DNA of 64,000 bases from Aurantiochytrium sp. KH105. Taxonomy: Eukaryota > Sar > Bigyra > Thraustochytrida > Thraustochytriidae. The notes beneath the pieces are model-generated. The model was not told the DNA's origin. It did no database searches and saw nothing but the letters and a program-made list of their open reading frames with translations. The translations under genes and the position numbers were made by a program. Where the stretch lies: NCBI GenBank assembly GCA_003116975.1, contig BGKB01000085.1, forward strand, positions 248,001 through 312,000, read 5' to 3'. Position 1 is the first letter of the stretch; the number at the start of each line of letters is the position of its first letter. Shown in pieces: positions 54,877-64,000 of this stretch.

Positions 54877-54889
54877 NNNNNNNNNNNNN
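54877..54889. other. Assembly gap (13 N)
   Basis: Thirteen unresolved bases directly beside the TTTC array. The true length between the flanks is unknown; it most likely reflects failure to assemble the microsatellite. Confidence 0.98.
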
Positions 54890-54897
54890 TTCTTTCC

Positions 54898-54898
54898 T

Positions 54899-54981
<83 letters not shown>
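54898..54981 (+). repeat. (TTTC)n microsatellite
   Basis: About twenty tandem TTTC units, then degenerate TTCC copies to about 55015. Confidence 0.95.
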
Positions 54982-54984
<3 letters not shown>

Positions 54985-55982: not shown

Positions 55983-55984
55983 TT

Positions 55985-56064
<80 letters not shown>

Positions 56065-56066
56065 TC
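55983..56066 (+). repeat. (TTTC)n microsatellite, second copy
   Basis: About twenty tandem TTTC units in the same orientation as the array at 54898, one kilobase away. Confidence 0.95.
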
Positions 56067-56670: not shown

Positions 56671-58590
56671 TCATCCTTTGCGGAGCAAAGGCTTGGATAA
56701 ATCCCCTCCATTGCTATTTTCAGGCACGTTCGTGATGGGCACCTTTTGCTGCAGCCTCGCGCTCACACGCCTCCGAGAACATGCACAAGAAAACCAAGAC
56801 GCCCAAAGCGACTGTGGACCCGGCCCAAGGCGCGCGAGAATGGCACGCTGCTGGACCCCTGCGCCAATTCCCAGTTGCTCGAGCATTTCCTTATCGATAT
56901 GTAAGCACGCGCACTTAGAAACCAGACCGGCGTTAAAGATAATCACGATTGCCGAACGCGAGACCTGGTCCTTTTGCAGCAAGACTTTCGACACGCGTGA
57001 ACCAGAGAGAAATTTTAGAAAATCCACCGCGGCCCTAAATTGGGACTGGCGCGCCACGTCCAGAGCAGTACAGCCTCGCTGGTCCGCGGCCTGCACATCT
57101 GCGCCCGCAGACCAACAAGCCTGCACACACTGCAAACGTTGAACCAATATTTCCGGAGACGAAGAGCTCTTTCGTTCGCAAGCAAGCCGAAGCGCCGCGT
57201 CAAGCTTAAGCTTCTCCTTCTTCTTCTTCTCTGCGCAACCATGCGAAAGCAAGGCATTCACGATCTCAAATCCACCGTGGCTACAAGCATGCATGAGGGC
57301 GGTAAAGCCTGTCTGCGACATAATCTCGGGATCTGCACCTCGCTCGAGCAGGAGGTTAACAGTCGCACTGAATTTCAACTGGCACGCGAACATTAGCGCT
57401 GTTGAGCCATCCCGCGTTCGAAGGTTAATTTCTGCCCCATGCTTGAGCAAAGCGTCAACGAGGTCGCAGTTTGCGCTTGCGCTGGCAAGCATCAAGGCGG
57501 TCACTCCTTCGTGGTCCTGTACGTTCGGGTCTGCGCCATGTCTTAGCAAAAGCTTTGCGATGCTGGGGTTTCCGCAGGAGCATGCCAGCATGAGCGCCGT
57601 GGCCCCGCTATTTGCACGGACTTGGAGGTCAGCACCAGCCGCAATGAGCGCCTCGACAAGATTGATTGAGCTTGCTCGGCAGCTCGACAGCATGAGCGGG
57701 GTTCTGCCAGTATCGTTCACTGCGCACGGATGCGCGCCGTGCGCCAGCAACAAATGCGCGATTTCAGTTTGCTTCGCCTGGCAGGCTTGCACGAGTGCCA
57801 TGTCCAGTTGCTGCGCAGAGAGACCGAGCTTGAGGATGCGCATGGCAATGTCTGTGTGCCCAGAACGAATCACATGTTCCATCGACAACGACGTGCATGC
57901 GAGATTTCTGTTGTGATTAACGACGAATCGAGCCACGTTTAGGAGATTGAATTCAAGCGCGAGCTGGAAAGCATCGAGTCCATCAGCCCGCTTGGCCGTG
58001 TAGTCTGCGCCGTATTTGAGCATCAAGTTACAGAGTTGTGGTTTTCGATGGCGAATAGCGAGCAAGAGTGCAGTGCTTCCGTCGCGAAACCGCTTTTCCA
58101 TATCCGCGCCTCGTGCAATGAGCGCAGCTGCGGCTGCTGGATGATTGTACTGAATTGCAAGCAATAGTGCCGTGTCGCCATTGTTGGCGCGCGATTCGAT
58201 GCGAATATCGTGCTCGATCATTGTCAGAGCAGCATCTTCGTGCCCGTTGCGAAGAGCAAACATCAATGGAGTGTATCCCGCCTCGTTTTCGAGGTCAGCA
58301 ATGCCGCCAAGCGCCATCATACAGTCGATTGCCTGCGGTAGACCTTGCCACGAACATGCCATGTGTAAGGGGGTGTCCCCGCGTTTGTTGCGCACATTGA
58401 TCTGCGCCCCGGCCCCAACAAGTGCATTTGCAGTCGCGATGTTGCCACGCATACACGCGAGGTGCAGCGCGGTATCGCCAGCTGCATTTCTGGCGCCAAC
58501 CCTCGCGCCTGAAAGAAGAGCTTTCTCGACCTGTTCCGCCGTGCCCGCCCTCAAGAGCTCATCCTCGACGCGCTGCGTCATTTCCCACAT
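56671..58590 (-). CDS. Ankyrin-repeat protein
   Basis: A 639-residue protein from the ATG at 58590; the frame opens upstream only through a GTG at 58701. About fourteen ankyrin repeats occupy residues about 25-490. They show the usual GxTALHLACxxGxxxxAxxLVxxGAxINxRNxxG pattern, for example GDTALHLACMRGNIATANAL, GDTPLHMACSWQGLPQAI and GVTALMLASASANCDLVDALL. Two central repeats (about 200-290) are degenerate. Residues about 490-640 include one more partial repeat (RGCTALDVARQSQFRAAVDFL) and a less regular tail. A moderately hydrophobic, Cys-rich stretch near the end (SLWASWFSCACSRRRVSARL) might be a membrane-proximal or lipidated segment. No catalytic domain is present, so it is probably an adaptor. 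Partners are unknown. Confidence 0.85.
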   Translation of the reverse strand: MWEMTQRVEDELLRAGTAEQVEKALLSGARVGARNAAGDTALHLACMRGNIATANALVGAGAQINVRNKRGDTPLHMACSWQGLPQAIDCMMALGGIADLENEAGYTPLMFALRNGHEDAALTMIEHDIRIESRANNGDTALLLAIQYNHPAAAAALIARGADMEKRFRDGSTALLLAIRHRKPQLCNLMLKYGADYTAKRADGLDAFQLALEFNLLNVARFVVNHNRNLACTSLSMEHVIRSGHTDIAMRILKLGLSAQQLDMALVQACQAKQTEIAHLLLAHGAHPCAVNDTGRTPLMLSSCRASSINLVEALIAAGADLQVRANSGATALMLACSCGNPSIAKLLLRHGADPNVQDHEGVTALMLASASANCDLVDALLKHGAEINLRTRDGSTALMFACQLKFSATVNLLLERGADPEIMSQTGFTALMHACSHGGFEIVNALLSHGCAEKKKKEKLKLDAALRLACERKSSSSPEILVQRLQCVQACWSAGADVQAADQRGCTALDVARQSQFRAAVDFLKFLSGSRVSKVLLQKDQVSRSAIVIIFNAGLVSKCACLHIDKEMLEQLGIGAGVQQRAILARLGPGPQSLWASWFSCACSRRRVSARLQQKVPITNVPENSNGGDLSKPLLRKG

Positions 58591-59381
58591 CTTTCGTGCT
58601 GCTCGCAATCTCCGTGCCGCGAGGTCTCCCGCCCAGGCCAGCCAAGCTTGGCTCCTCTCGCGATCTTCTCCCCAATTCCGCTTTGCTCGCTCGCCGGCCA
58701 CCTGGCCAAAAGTCCGTCAAGCGTGAGGCTCCTTCCCTTTCTGTGACGAGGAATGCCTGGTGGCTGCCGGTTCTCCGAGTCCGTATCCGGGGACCCCTTC
58801 TCAACCCTCGCGTGGTGTACCTTCTCGCGTGCTGGACGGAGAACTCTGGACGGAGAACCCGAGGTGTGCTCTCTCCTGCTCGCTCGATCGCAGCCGCCTC
58901 CAGCTGCGCTTGAGCGAGCACGCCACGAACAACTTGAGCCACTCCAAAAAGAGGCCTGGCAGAAGACGAACGAAGACGAAGACGAAGATGAAGCCGAAGG
59001 AGACAACGTGAGACGTCAATGGCGACAATGATGTTGACGTTGGAGCCCCCTCGAGCTGGACAAGGAGACGCAGGAGGGCGCCAAGGTCGGGACGACGGAG
59101 ACGGAGAGGGGGAGGAGCGACTCGGTCCGCCCGACCGCGGCGGAGACCAGGGCGATCCAGACGTTGGAGCTGCACACGCTCGAGGCGCTCCTCCTTTTTA
59201 CGCAGTAGTATAGTATAGTTCTCAATGGCAAGATGTCGCCTCGAGCGGCCTGTCCGACGACGACGACATTGACGACGACGAACAGAACCCAAAGCCTGAC
59301 TTGGCCGGCGAGCAGCAGCTGCAGGCTGCAGAGAGGATCAGGCAAGCAGACGGGAAAAGGGAGACCTCGATTCTCGCGGCG
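58591..59381. promoter_or_regulatory. Divergent region, possibly with 5' exon of the VOC-like gene
   Basis: This 791 bp region lies between divergent starts. It has an open frame 58753-59007 followed by a GTGAGA donor, and TATAG-type acceptors at 59213 and 59218 after a ctcctccttttta tract. A first exon of the downstream gene is therefore possible (see that entry). Nothing else seen. Confidence 0.4.
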
Positions 59382-60197
59382 ATGGCGAATCTAGTGGCGC
59401 TCGTGAGCGGAGACGCTCCCGCGGCATGGCAGCGCGCGGGCTTCGCGCTCAGCCGAGCGCCCGTGCCGAGCTTCCTCGCCAAGTACGGGTGCTCGGCCTG
59501 GCTCAACTTGCCGACGCAGAATAGACGGCTTGCGGTAGGTCTTGGCGCGGAAAGCACGGAACACATTAAATCCGGCATCTCCGCGTGGGTATGGGCAGGG
59601 CTCAAGGACAAGAGCCCTCAGGCTGTAGGCGACTTTGCTTCTCTCGCCATCTCGGATGCCGAAGCCGAGGCAGCCTTCGAGAGCGATGTCAATGCTGGCT
59701 CGCGCGATGATGAACACCCGAACGGCATTGTCAATATCGATCAAGTCGTCTTGAGGACGCTCGACATGGACAGCTCGCTCGAGTCCTTCGAGGCGGCCGG
59801 CCTCAAGCTCTTGCGCAAGCGCGACGATTTGTATCCCGGCACGACGCAGGCGTTCATCAGGCCTTGCGACGATGTTATTCTCGAGATTGTATCGGTAACT
59901 CCTGAATTGCGCAAGAAGCAGGCCAAGATGACCAATCAAATGGTTGCCTTCAACGAAACCGAGAATAGCATTTGGGGCCTTACCTACGTTGTCAAGGACA
60001 TTGAGGCCGCCGCAGAGATGTTCAGCCCTAACATTAGCAAGGTCAACAACGCAAAACAGCCTGGACGCAAAATCGCGACCTTGCGCACCGAGCAGCTCGG
60101 CCTGCGCGCGGCCATTGCGATCATGTCTGCTCACGTCAAGTTGCCTCCTGGACAGGACGCTGCTGTGCCCTCTTCGCCGCCTTCGGCCAAGCTCTAA
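59382..60197 (+). CDS. VOC/glyoxalase-like protein (start uncertain)
   Basis: The first in-frame ATG is at 59382 and gives 271 residues, but the frame is open back to 59214 with no ATG and encodes SQWQDVASSGLSDDDDIDDDE, so an upstream exon is likely. A phase-compatible model joins 58753-59007 to 59214-60197 (donor GTGAGA, acceptor ending TAG at 59213), giving about 412 residues. The visible part has two half-domains. One runs from about ISAWVWAGLKD. The other contains VNIDQVVLRTLDMDSSLESFEAAGLKLL and IRPCDDVILEIVSV, then IWGLTYVVKDIEAAAEMF and LRAAIAIMSAH. These fit the beta-alpha-beta-beta-beta pattern of the VOC superfamily (glyoxalase-like type). Metal ligands are not obvious. Function unknown. 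Confidence 0.6.
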   Translation: MANLVALVSGDAPAAWQRAGFALSRAPVPSFLAKYGCSAWLNLPTQNRRLAVGLGAESTEHIKSGISAWVWAGLKDKSPQAVGDFASLAISDAEAEAAFESDVNAGSRDDEHPNGIVNIDQVVLRTLDMDSSLESFEAAGLKLLRKRDDLYPGTTQAFIRPCDDVILEIVSVTPELRKKQAKMTNQMVAFNETENSIWGLTYVVKDIEAAAEMFSPNISKVNNAKQPGRKIATLRTEQLGLRAAIAIMSAHVKLPPGQDAAVPSSPPSAKL

Positions 60198-60360: not shown

Positions 60361-63300
60361 TCAGATGCAAAAGAGCAGGTCTTCGATATCGCCTGTCGAG
60401 GTACTTCCACCGCTACTGCTCTGGCTTTCAGACGTCAGCGAAGACACCGATTGGCCTTCCCAACGAAGCGCCGAAGGCTTGCGGCTCTCCTGCTTTGAGA
60501 CACTTTTGCGCCGCACCTTTTTCTTGTGAGCTGTCACGAGCTCCACCGCGGCAAATTCCAAATGCTCGCGCTCTTCACGCGCAAGCTTGAGAAAGGGAAA
60601 TCGGTCCGATAGACGATCCGCAAAGTGAATACGCAAAAGCTCCTTGAACGCCGGCGAGAAAAGCTCACGGAAACGCACATCTTCCACAATAATGTTAACA
60701 AAGTTGCGCACATGAGGAAAACCGCGGTCCAGCAAAGAAACCTGATGCACACATTGCACTCCCATTTCGATGAAAAACAGGTGCGAAAACACTAGGATAT
60801 CCGCGAGACCCATTTCTTCTCCACAAAGATACTCGCCCAAGCTACTGGCCTCAAGCTCGGCCAAAAGGTCATCCAAAACCTTCAAAATTGACTCCATCTG
60901 AGCGAGATGAAGCATGTTTTGACCTTCGCGATGCGCCAGGCTACCAAACTCTTGCAGACGAAGCTTGGCCACTGCGTCTCTCTCATTCTGCCTCACCAAG
61001 GCTGTCACCTGAAGAGGACTGTGCTCCACGTCTTGCGCATCACCATGAAACTTGGCCGTAAATAAAATTAAAAACGGTTCCGCAAACTCAGGCATGGATC
61101 TCTTAAAGGATTCTCGACGCGAAAATTGATCCACCCAGGCATTCACACGAGGGAAACCCTCCGCCGTCAGCTCAAACCCGTGAAACCAGGCACAACACAC
61201 TTTCACAATGCGCCAAATCGAAGTGACCAGGGCCACGTCAGCCACTGCGCACGTTGGACCCAACAGAAAGGGCCCGCCCGAGTTCGCAAGCTGAGTCTCC
61301 ATCGCGCCCAAGAGCTCACACATTTCGCGTCGTTTAGCCGCACGCGTCGGGTCGTTCGTCTTCGCCTTGAGGTATGCTTCGCAAATGGCATCGCACGCGT
61401 TAAAGAGTGCCATCTCCGCGCAGCCGTCCACGCGAGAGACCCCCTCGAGCCGCAAGGGCTTGTCCAGTGTCGCGTACCTCTGCGTGAAAAGTCGCTGCAT
61501 TGTATTGAGCACAATTTGGGACTCGTTCGTCCATACACCATTCCAATAAATACTGGGGCATTTTCCAGTGCTCGAAGCTTCCGTGAACCACGCCGGCTTG
61601 TCGAGCAAGTCGATCTTAACAGTATGATGCGGAACGCCCGCTTCAATCGCGACCATCTCCACTACGCGTGAAAAGGGACACACTTTGGTCAAGAACTCAT
61701 CGCGATGCACGCATCCAATTGCCAAGTATACCTTGTTCATCTCAAATGAGGGGCCTGCCATGCCTCCCTTCACGCTGACGGATCCGTCTGCCGCCACGCA
61801 AATTGTGTCCTTGCCATAACTCGACATGAGCGTTGTCACCATGTCCTCTTCTGCGGCCTTGCGAGCCACTGTGCTGCGGCACCGCAGCGGCTGCCACGCA
61901 GGGAACTTGCGCTCGTAGTGAGCTGCGGCATTCAAGACATAAAATGGCGTCGCGCCTTCAGTCTCGGAGGTTTCACGCATCAACGCTGTCCGCGCCATCG
62001 CAGTCACATACCGCTGCAGTCGCGATAGACCATGTCGCTCCGCGCAAAAACCAGCCATGGGCCGCAAGACACGCTCGAGGCAATAATGTAAGTGCGGAGC
62101 AAGAATGAGGTCATCCAGACCCACTTCCCTTGCACCAGACAGAAAAGGATACCATGTCAGCGTGACAGTCTGCGCTTTCGTGTCTTCGCGGGTATTGTCG
62201 GTCGCTTCATTTTCTGCAAGAATCGTTTCGAGCGGTTGCAAAACGTTGAGCAAAGTCGCTAGACATTTAGCGTCAACCTCGTCGCGCTGTGGCTCGACGC
62301 CAGAGCCGTCTGGTCTCATCATATAAGCATCCGTTGCCGCCTCAAGCTCCTCGCAAATGCGAAAGACATCCGCATAGCTGGTGCGCCGAGGCAGTTGGTC
62401 AAAGTCTGCGCGGTACAGCTCGTGCAAGACGTCGAGAATGGCTTTGTCCCCCACGGTGACCCTTTCGTCGGGACCAGGACCCAATAGCATAGGCACTTGA
62501 TCCGGACCAACCCAAGTTGGCGGGTCGGCAGCATCAACCAGCACCGTGCTATGCGGGATGCCCAAAGCGCGCATGACCATTTCCACCTTTTGCGAAGAGG
62601 GGCAGTTGCGCACGAGACGATCCCCGCGGTGACCCACGCCAATGCAAAGAAAAGCTCTAGACCCGTTTGCAGGTGGGCGCTCCTTTACTTTACGCTGCTG
62701 GCGCAAACGTTTCAGTCGGCTCTGATCTGACCCGAGCACCTCGTCCATATTACCAGCCCCGGCTGCCTTGATGTTGAGTACAATCTTGCCTCGAGCTTCT
62801 TCGGGGTTCATGGCCAACATTTCTCGCATTTTCTCGGGACTCGAGAAAATTACAAGGTGAACATGGCGTTCAAGCACGTCGAAAAAGGACCAGGTCGCGA
62901 CCGGGAGATCGTGCGTGCGATTTGCGCGCTTGGCCTGCGCCGGAAACTTGCGGTGCAAGTAGCGCATGATATCTCTCGAATTGTGCGTCCACTTCCCTTC
63001 ATAGTAGATTGTGGGCGTGCGTCCGGTCGGCACAGCCTCCGTAAACCACGAGGGCTTGGCGTTCCAGTCAATGTCAATAACTTGATGAGGTATACCGGCG
63101 ACAATGAGGAACATGTATACCATTCGAGAGTACGGGCACATGCGCGCAAGATAGTTTTTGATGCGGATGCAACCATAGCAAAGGTACACTGTGCCTACCA
63201 ATGGATCATCTGGCAGCGTTGTCACGACTGCAGCGTGCGTCGCATCGTTCCGTAAAGTCGTGTCTCGCCCTTGGGGCCGGCCAACTCTTGTGCTGCGGCC

Positions 63301-64000
63301 TTGGCTCCGCAAGCCAGATGCGAGCCGGCGCGCCTGGCTCTTGCTCGCCCGGCGCGCCTGGAGCTGATGCAAGTCTTCGACTTCGTCATCCTCGCTGTCT
63401 TCGAGAGCATGCAGCGCTTCCATAAGTCTCTCGTGCGTGACGCCAACGGCCGCTTCAACGCCATCAAACTTGTCGAAATTAGCCCGAATACCCTTGCCTC
63501 CAGGGCGTCGCTCCATCATGTTGCCAAAGAGAATGCCGCCAAGCTCGAGATCCGTGCCTCTGTACTGAGTTGTGCATACCAGCAAGTCGTTGTAAACAGA
63601 GTCATGCCCCGAAAAGCTCACGCTGAGAACGATGTTTGCCATTTCCTCCGGGTCGAGCAGGAATCGTCGGAGAGGCGATTGTTCGTCGATCTTGTGTATA
63701 ATCGTTGCGACTGCAGTGACAATGGGCGGGAACGAGGTCTCGAGCGTGTCATACCCGACAAAGTTCTCGCCTTCCGTCGTTTCGTGAAATCGCAAAAGAT
63801 TAACGGATACGCGGGTTTCGTAGACGAGATTGACGCGTCGATTCCCCACGCGAATGAGCAAGGTCGGCTCGCCATCTCGAGTTGTCACCAATGCCTTTTT
63901 GCTAAAGACAATGTCTGGCTTGGGAATCTGAAACTTGGAAACAACCACGGAGAGGACAATCACATTGAGCATGATGCCGGCAAATTGCTGCACGCATGAG
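60361..64000 (-). CDS. Inward-rectifier K+ channel fused to DHAR/CLIC-like GST modules (partial)
   Basis: One uninterrupted frame of about 1212 residues enters from the right edge and ends at 60361; the true start and channel pore lie beyond 64000. Numbered from the codon at 63993, residues 1-20 (FAGIMLNVIVLSVVVSK) are the end of inner helix M2. Residues 21-190 are the Kir cytoplasmic domain: PDIVFSKKALVTTRDGEPTLLIRVGNRRVN, then FPPIVTAVATIIHKID and the beta strands through FDKFDGVE. Three thioredoxin-fold modules follow: 268-350 (CPYS at 286), 446-527 (CPSS at 464) and 754-835 (CPFS at 772). Each resembles dehydroascorbate reductase or CLIC, with NAKPSWF or DKPAWF and a TGRTP/TGKCP turn. GST C-terminal helices follow module 3 (about 850-960), and another C-terminal domain lies at about 1000-1115. 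The tail is Ser-rich. A redox-coupled channel is inferred. Confidence 0.82.
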   Translation of the reverse strand, partial: SCVQQFAGIMLNVIVLSVVVSKFQIPKPDIVFSKKALVTTRDGEPTLLIRVGNRRVNLVYETRVSVNLLRFHETTEGENFVGYDTLETSFPPIVTAVATIIHKIDEQSPLRRFLLDPEEMANIVLSVSFSGHDSVYNDLLVCTTQYRGTDLELGGILFGNMMERRPGGKGIRANFDKFDGVEAAVGVTHERLMEALHALEDSEDDEVEDLHQLQARRASKSQARRLASGLRSQGRSTRVGRPQGRDTTLRNDATHAAVVTTLPDDPLVGTVYLCYGCIRIKNYLARMCPYSRMVYMFLIVAGIPHQVIDIDWNAKPSWFTEAVPTGRTPTIYYEGKWTHNSRDIMRYLHRKFPAQAKRANRTHDLPVATWSFFDVLERHVHLVIFSSPEKMREMLAMNPEEARGKIVLNIKAAGAGNMDEVLGSDQSRLKRLRQQRKVKERPPANGSRAFLCIGVGHRGDRLVRNCPSSQKVEMVMRALGIPHSTVLVDAADPPTWVGPDQVPMLLGPGPDERVTVGDKAILDVLHELYRADFDQLPRRTSYADVFRICEELEAATDAYMMRPDGSGVEPQRDEVDAKCLATLLNVLQPLETILAENEATDNTREDTKAQTVTLTWYPFLSGAREVGLDDLILAPHLHYCLERVLRPMAGFCAERHGLSRLQRYVTAMARTALMRETSETEGATPFYVLNAAAHYERKFPAWQPLRCRSTVARKAAEEDMVTTLMSSYGKDTICVAADGSVSVKGGMAGPSFEMNKVYLAIGCVHRDEFLTKVCPFSRVVEMVAIEAGVPHHTVKIDLLDKPAWFTEASSTGKCPSIYWNGVWTNESQIVLNTMQRLFTQRYATLDKPLRLEGVSRVDGCAEMALFNACDAICEAYLKAKTNDPTRAAKRREMCELLGAMETQLANSGGPFLLGPTCAVADVALVTSIWRIVKVCCAWFHGFELTAEGFPRVNAWVDQFSRRESFKRSMPEFAEPFLILFTAKFHGDAQDVEHSPLQVTALVRQNERDAVAKLRLQEFGSLAHREGQNMLHLAQMESILKVLDDLLAELEASSLGEYLCGEEMGLADILVFSHLFFIEMGVQCVHQVSLLDRGFPHVRNFVNIIVEDVRFRELFSPAFKELLRIHFADRLSDRFPFLKLAREEREHLEFAAVELVTAHKKKVRRKSVSKQESRKPSALRWEGQSVSSLTSESQSSSGGSTSTGDIEDLLFCI

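Follow-up and report, generated by a model that had tools for sequence, protein, structure and literature searches.

Contig BGKB01000085.1 (C85) of Aurantiochytrium sp. KH105, whose genome assembly comprises 76 Mb in 367 contigs, carries at one end of the 64,000-nucleotide stretch analyzed here (C85:248001-312000, referred to as the window) a gene, KirGST, which encodes in one polypeptide the pore of an inward-rectifier K+ (Kir) channel, complete with its K+ filter, followed by the Kir cytoplasmic domain and by an array of cysteine-type glutathione S-transferase (Cys-GST) domains. The new element is this regulatory or enzymatic array on a member of the Kir family. Judging from sequence, KirGST is most likely the subunit of a thiol- or glutathione-responsive K+ channel that bears its own Cys-GST array, a reading to which we give about an even chance.

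An initial annotation of the window had proposed a Kir channel fused in a single frame to GST domains of the dehydroascorbate reductase (DHAR) and CLIC type. Both parts were recovered by Pfam in the portion of the gene that lies in the window, with 55.1 bits for IRK_C (PF17655; cut-off 22.5), 97.6 bits over three stretches for GST_N_2, 62.2 for GST_C_2 and 41.6 for CLIC-like_N. The frame, on the minus strand, is stop-free for 1212 codons (window 60361-63999) and reaches the window edge. Extension of the contig to the right, which the annotation had advised, revealed the pore and a TLGYG filter upstream in the same frame, which on this locus (L005) is stop-free for 1607 codons and encodes M1, the filter, M2, the Kir cytoplasmic domain and then the GST array. 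In 300 first-order Markov simulations of the same 10 kb, read in six frames, the longest stop-free run never exceeded 373 codons (mean 223). The first base of the start ATG, which has the context GCCACCATGG, is found 1109 bases past the right end of the window (L005:5109, or C85:313109), and the protein counted from it has 1582 amino acids; residue numbers given here are those of P0002, which carries one additional residue ahead of the Met.

An intact second copy of the gene, 97% identical, is present on contig C83. Since the two contigs are collinear across the gene and the compared flanks, with 96.0% DNA identity, and the other Kir loci of this genome are also paired, we infer that they represent haplotypes and not paralogues. 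The uncorrected ratio of nonsynonymous to synonymous differences (pN/pS, C85 vs C83, residues counted from the Met) was 0.155 for the whole gene, 0.445 for the N-terminus and 0.095 for the channel; the GST regions gave 0.057 (residues 646-815, N1), 0.128 (816-1085, N2-C2) and 0.063 (1086-1500, N3-C3-C4), and the tail differed by 2 synonymous and 0 nonsynonymous changes. Both halves of KirGST are thus under purifying selection. One stretch of the linker between them (591-645) showed a pN/pS of 1.14, from 3 synonymous and 9 nonsynonymous changes, with the frame open, and all gap columns between haplotypes fall before residue 200, without any indel beyond. A public gene model of this gene, P0003 (1524 amino acids), is identical to neither copy: its last 1382 residues differ at 6 positions from C85 and at 26 from C83. 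It omits as an intron a 165-nucleotide GT..AG stretch in the N-terminal region, which leaves the domains unaffected.

Homologs were searched for among 5.8 billion clustered proteins, with about 8000 candidates scored per search. In the search with the GST region, 7994 candidates sharing most words and having 0.55-1.75 times the query length were scored; this limit on length also placed ordinary Kir channels, with about 400 amino acids, outside the range of another of these searches. Besides P0003, the relatives among the matches listed were P0004 (55% identity), P0009 (47%), P0005 (41%) and P0006 (37%). In P0005, P0006 and P0009 the channel is followed by the GST array, with the junction as in KirGST. 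The contigs behind the first two measure at most 5.4 and 6.3 kb, respectively; both sequences lack an initial Met and may therefore be truncated at the 5' end. Those behind P0009 reach 160 kb (159574 bases), and its record is one member sequence on two contigs. P0004, a transcriptome peptide (MMETSP0961), begins inside N1 and covers the GST part only, not the junction. Cysteines 837, 1145, 1307, 1430 and 1582 are invariant in 5/5 sequences, and 330, 361, 513 and 659 in the 4/4 that cover them (all except P0004). Among the large domains, the channel shows the strongest conservation between species, with 155-176 of 267-270 positions identical to the three relatives that include it (176/269 in P0009) as compared with 103-109 of 226-235 for N3-C3. 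Free-standing multi-GST proteins were also looked for with the GST-region query, which returned P0003 and P0004 alone among the matches listed. Scans of prokaryotic and viral contigs with a three-sequence alignment (A2) produced 20 and 71 pattern matches, respectively, and 0 confirmed; as each scan rested on two short patterns, only close relatives are ruled out as a prokaryotic or viral source.

The channel part resembles characterized Kir proteins over its transmembrane (TM) and cytoplasmic regions. Residues 288-540 matched KirBac3.1 in a single-sequence comparison (E 6.5e-20), and a profile of the four channel sequences matched KirBac3.1 (E 2.4e-25) and Kir2.2 (E 3.1e-25) across both regions; the TM helices were placed by alignment to these two proteins. 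IRK_C was also detected in P0005 (63.8 bits), P0006 (47.0) and P0009 (51.3), and Ion_trans_2 in the KirGST protein (23.8 bits vs 22.5). The pore loop reads SNILTLGYGPC, and a TxGYG/TxGFG filter is kept in 3/4 full-length sequences (TLGYG in KirGST and P0005, TLGFG in P0006, TLSSS in P0009). KirGST thus shares M1-P-M2, TxGYG and the cytoplasmic domain with KirBac3.1, Kir2.2 and Kir2.1, and with Kir2.2 also the cysteines on either side of the pore: C330 and C361, present in 4/4 full-length sequences, correspond to the extracellular pair that is a hallmark of Kir channels. For the basic residues of the PIP2 site the picture is mixed: two lysines after M2 (K393 and K398) and a basic RKK(K/R) segment ahead of the slide helix are kept in 4/4, but two arginines before M1 are replaced (see below). 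At what we take to be the rectification-controller position of Kir2, KirGST has N383, with N in P0009 and S in P0005 and P0006.

The same genome contains three further Kir loci in two copies each (presumably haplotypes), L001/L002 (contigs C7/C10), L003/L004 (C49/C90) and L020/L021 (C24/C112), with the filters TIGYA (L001), TIGYG (L003) and TSGFG (L020) and a cytoplasmic domain matched as two pieces separated by gaps of about 92, 317 and 459 residues. No GST domain was found in them at E 0.001 (one haplotype each: L001, 797 amino acids; L003, 857/862; L020, 1090/1170).

With respect to the array, profiles searched against solved structures matched N1 to DHAR2 (E 4.3e-11, N domain alone), N2-C2 to CLIC1 (2.1e-9, both domains), N3-C3 to DHAR2 (2.3e-17, both domains) and C4, weakly, to the C domain of GDAP1 (E 0.002). 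In profile-profile comparison C4 resembles C2 and C3 (probability 97.0 and 95.2), but for the segment that follows N1 no C domain of the array gave a match (0.4, 0.1 and 0.9 with C2, C3 and C4). The order is therefore N1-[N2-C2]-[N3-C3]-C4, with three N and three C domains. The three GST modules of the initial annotation therefore hold as three N domains and not as three complete GSTs. DHAR, omega GST and CLIC proteins share the CPxS motif and are single modules, unlike the three N and three C domains which follow the pore here in a non-simple order.

The annotation was right in assigning three CPxS cysteines to each subunit (C659, C837 and C1145). The cysteine of the CP motif is present in N1 in 4/4 sequences (P0004 begins past it) and in N2 and N3 in 5/5, with CPET in N2 of P0009 and CPxS in that of the other four. 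In cysteine GSTs, glutathione binding is marked by a cis-Pro and a D/E-S pair. N3 is the sole N domain with the full signature (CPxS, cis-Pro and E-S, 5/5). In N1 the cis-Pro is kept in 5/5 and D/E-S in 0/5, being replaced by N-S (3), N-T (1) or neither (1), and N2 has D/E-S in 0/5, cis-Pro in 4/5 and the S of CPxS in 4/5. An N and a C domain together with a CP cysteine occur in N2-C2 and N3-C3 alone, N1 standing by itself. The twelve sites envisaged around the pore would accordingly hold for the cysteines, if the channel is a tetramer, and not as twelve demonstrated glutathione sites. In a tree of the N domains the N2 sequences form one group (94/97), as do those of N3 (99/100), with N1 unresolved. 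This grouping suggests that N2 and N3 predate the divergence of the five sequences, although the alignment is short (77 columns) and two N2 branches are long. A CLIC-like protein with a single GST, encoded on contig C100, groups with DHAR2 outside the array N domains (89/83). Single CLIC/DHAR-like GSTs with a CPFS motif lie within longer open frames on C100 (L009/L027, 710 amino acids) and C107 (L008/L028, 537 amino acids).

The coordinates of the KirGST features that fall in the window are collected in Table 1.

Table 1. KirGST features in the window; positions count from the first letter of the 64,000-nucleotide stretch and residues follow P0002
Feature	Position	Strand	Basis
KirGST gene, 3' part	60361..64000	-	one open frame; allele on C83
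M2 from the window edge on (residues 372-397), holds N383	63922..63999	-	alignment
Kir cytoplasmic domain, IRK_C (residues 401-554)	63451..63912	-	Pfam and profile match
C513 codon in Kir cytoplasmic domain	63574-63576	-	conserved 4/4
Linker (residues 561-643), poor between-species conservation	63184..63432	-	haplotype and relative comparison
N1, DHAR/omega-GST-type N domain	62923..63177	-	Pfam, profile
N1 CPYS cysteine C659	63136-63138	-	alignment
Segment after N1, without match to C domains of the same protein	62668..62922	-	profile-profile comparison
N2, N domain, degenerate glutathione-site signature	62383..62667	-	profile, alignment
N2 CPSS cysteine C837	62602-62604	-	alignment
C2, GST C domain, pairs with N2	61957..62382	-	N2-C2 profile positions 6-224 match CLIC1
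N3, N domain, cis-Pro and E-S kept 5/5	61459..61740	-	profile, alignment
N3 CPFS cysteine C1145	61678-61680	-	alignment
C3, GST C domain, pairs with N3	61078..61458	-	N3-C3 match plant DHAR2, E 2.3e-17
C4, additional GST C domain without preceding N domain	60613..60990	-	Pfam, profile-profile comparison
C-terminus LFCI, invariant 5/5	60364..60375	-	alignment

Based on this organization, it can be hypothesized that KirGST is expressed as one protein, four subunits of which would form the pore with the GST arrays hanging in the cytosol below the cytoplasmic domains. N3-C3 would bind glutathione, one of its conjugates or a mixed disulfide at C1145, whereas N1 and N2-C2 may be partial sites or structural parts. 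The occupied or redox state of the array would reach the gate through the cytoplasmic domain, whether by a conformational change or by the addition of glutathione to, or its removal from, channel cysteines such as C513. This residue, replaced by alanine in Kir2.2 and KirBac3.1 in the profile alignments, is the best candidate thiol inside the cytoplasmic domain. Glutathione is reported to modify Kir5.1 at Cys158 and Kir6.1 at Cys176, with inhibition of the channel (PMC11631806). Deglutathionylation by Cys-GSTs is described mostly for metabolites and, in the case of human GSTO1, also for a protein (PMC4138524), and CLIC1 is reported to be a glutathione-dependent oxidoreductase with dehydroascorbate, too, among its substrates (PMC4291220). 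The presence of a candidate enzyme of this kind on the channel suggests that the array may set or read the thiol state of the channel itself. Gating of KirGST by glutathione or reactive oxygen species, as put forward in the initial annotation, is plausible from the domain content. A bolder version is tentative and, taken as a whole, rather improbable: a class of redox-gated K+ channels in which the Cys-GST built into each subunit would both sense and edit glutathionylation, thereby linking glutathione or electrophile stress to membrane K+ conductance within a single polypeptide, P0009 would have lost its pore and become a silent subunit or pure redox enzyme, and N1 and C4 would close into a discontinuous or intersubunit GST around the channel.

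Several observations weigh against a glutathione-responsive Kir channel. The Pfam model of the Kir TM region, PF01007, was listed neither for the KirGST protein (at E 0.01) nor for the locus, nor for P0005 and P0009, and P0006 scored 17.5 bits vs a cut-off of 22.7, so that Kir membership rests on the sequence and profile matches to KirBac3.1 over the TM and cytoplasmic parts. Two arginines before M1 that presumably belong to the PIP2 site (by their positions in Kir2.2) are S and A here. Like the N or S at the controller position, these replacements are a departure from other Kir channels, and the channel probably rectifies weakly and has a modified lipid site. M2 has no cysteine at its cytosolic end, the region that is glutathionylated in Kir6.1. 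As N2 lacks the canonical contacts and N1 a C domain, the larger part of the array may be unable to bind glutathione. P0009, whose filter SNIITLSSSVC aligns without gaps to SNILTLGYGPC, retains the rest of the layout, and thus keeps the array where K+ conduction is doubtful; as SSS has no glycine, P0009 may be silent and is a candidate silent subunit. Finally, activation of the bacterial Kef system is reported not to need the activity of its partner enzyme (PMC10224563), and an enzyme fused to a channel thus need not gate it by catalysis.

The points just mentioned may also be read in other ways. The Kir part could chiefly anchor a deglutathionylating or dehydroascorbate-reducing enzyme at a membrane as a tetramer, conduction being secondary or controlling the enzyme. 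The full Cys-GST signature of N3-C3 in all sequences, its best match to DHAR and the lost filter of P0009, which has kept channel domains and array, agree with this possibility, as would the invariant LFCI tail, which resembles what we take to be a class II PDZ ligand with a penultimate cysteine and could bind a scaffold. A mere anchor, however, needs no K+ filter, which three of the four full-length sequences preserve, and the channel is better conserved between species than N3-C3; we regard this explanation as unlikely. We hold it quite unlikely that the array acts as a scaffold in assembly or protein binding without being catalytic and that lipids or other ligands gate the channel. GST-like parts do serve as non-catalytic scaffolds in metaxin, SspA and EF1B-gamma, and the degenerate N2, the incomplete N1 and C4, the weak likeness of C4 to GDAP1 and the low scores with the curated CLIC model TIGR00862 (38.8 bits for P0002 and 52.8 for P0009 vs a cut-off of 358.95) would fit such a role. 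Yet all three N domains, degenerate N2 included, keep their CP cysteine in every sequence that covers it, which disfavors a pure scaffold because these cysteines would be needless for it.

That two genes are joined solely in the assembled frame, or that the product is a functionless read-through, is very improbable. The sole transcriptome peptide, P0004, starts inside N1, no junction-spanning transcript was seen and one stretch of the linker differs almost neutrally between the haplotypes; nevertheless, the junction contains neither stop nor indel in the two haplotypes and is the same in P0005, P0006 and P0009, on which grounds an assembly chimera was also judged unlikely. A thiol- or glutathione-responsive channel remains our preferred reading of KirGST.

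Among known systems, Kir channels differ from KirGST in lacking a Cys-GST array after the cytoplasmic domain. CLICs are reported to be able to enter membranes as well (PMC4291220). The bacterial Kef system, described as closed by glutathione and activated by glutathione conjugates, with the oxidoreductase partner KefF bound on its cytosolic side (PMC10224563), likewise couples glutathione chemistry to K+ flux, as KirGST would; it differs from KirGST in that its K+ efflux is tied to the entry of H+ and in the presence of a KTN/RCK domain. KirGST would therefore be a one-gene analog of Kef in function and not in descent. TbIRK of Trypanosoma brucei, a Kir-related protist protein that resembles P0009 in having no classical filter, is reported to conduct K+ through GGYVG, whereas P0009 has SSS, and a GST domain goes unmentioned in the accessible text on TbIRK (PMC5429665).

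In the vicinity of KirGST, a 327-codon open frame (window 59214-60197, plus strand), without a Pfam match at E 0.01, is arranged tail-to-tail with it, with 163 bases between the stop codons. Directly upstream, on the same strand, lies a 1246-codon open frame with an EF-hand near its end (L005:5408-9148, minus strand). Farther away, a 681-codon open frame (56674-58716, minus strand) encodes many ankyrin repeats, and two runs of CTTT/CTTC-type simple repeats (54893-54984 and 55983-56066) fall within long stop-free frames, reading lysine-glutamate-arginine on the minus strand; a 13-base N run (54877-54889) adjoins the first of them. N-myristoylation at the MGASSSS start of KirGST was considered and dropped, as P0009 begins with MQAQQ.

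The initial annotation knew of no described channel with this layout, and no Kir-GST protein appeared among the matches listed in the open-access literature, a scope that leaves out most subscription papers and bioRxiv preprints. The word glutathione is absent from the accessible parts of a survey of the K+ channels of protozoan pathogens (PMC3283738) and of one, with a labyrinthulomycete in its sample, of Kv and CNBD channels (PMC7576140). Redox control of Kir channels has been reported as the glutathionylation of single cysteines by cellular glutathione, reversed by separate enzymes (PMC11631806); in KirGST the candidate enzyme belongs to the channel polypeptide. As the fused layout is kept among distant relatives, KirGST may be an ion channel that reads or changes the redox state of the cell directly. 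If this coupling is true, it would offer a one-protein system in which the gating of a K+ pore by glutathione chemistry can be measured, and a eukaryotic functional counterpart of bacterial Kef.

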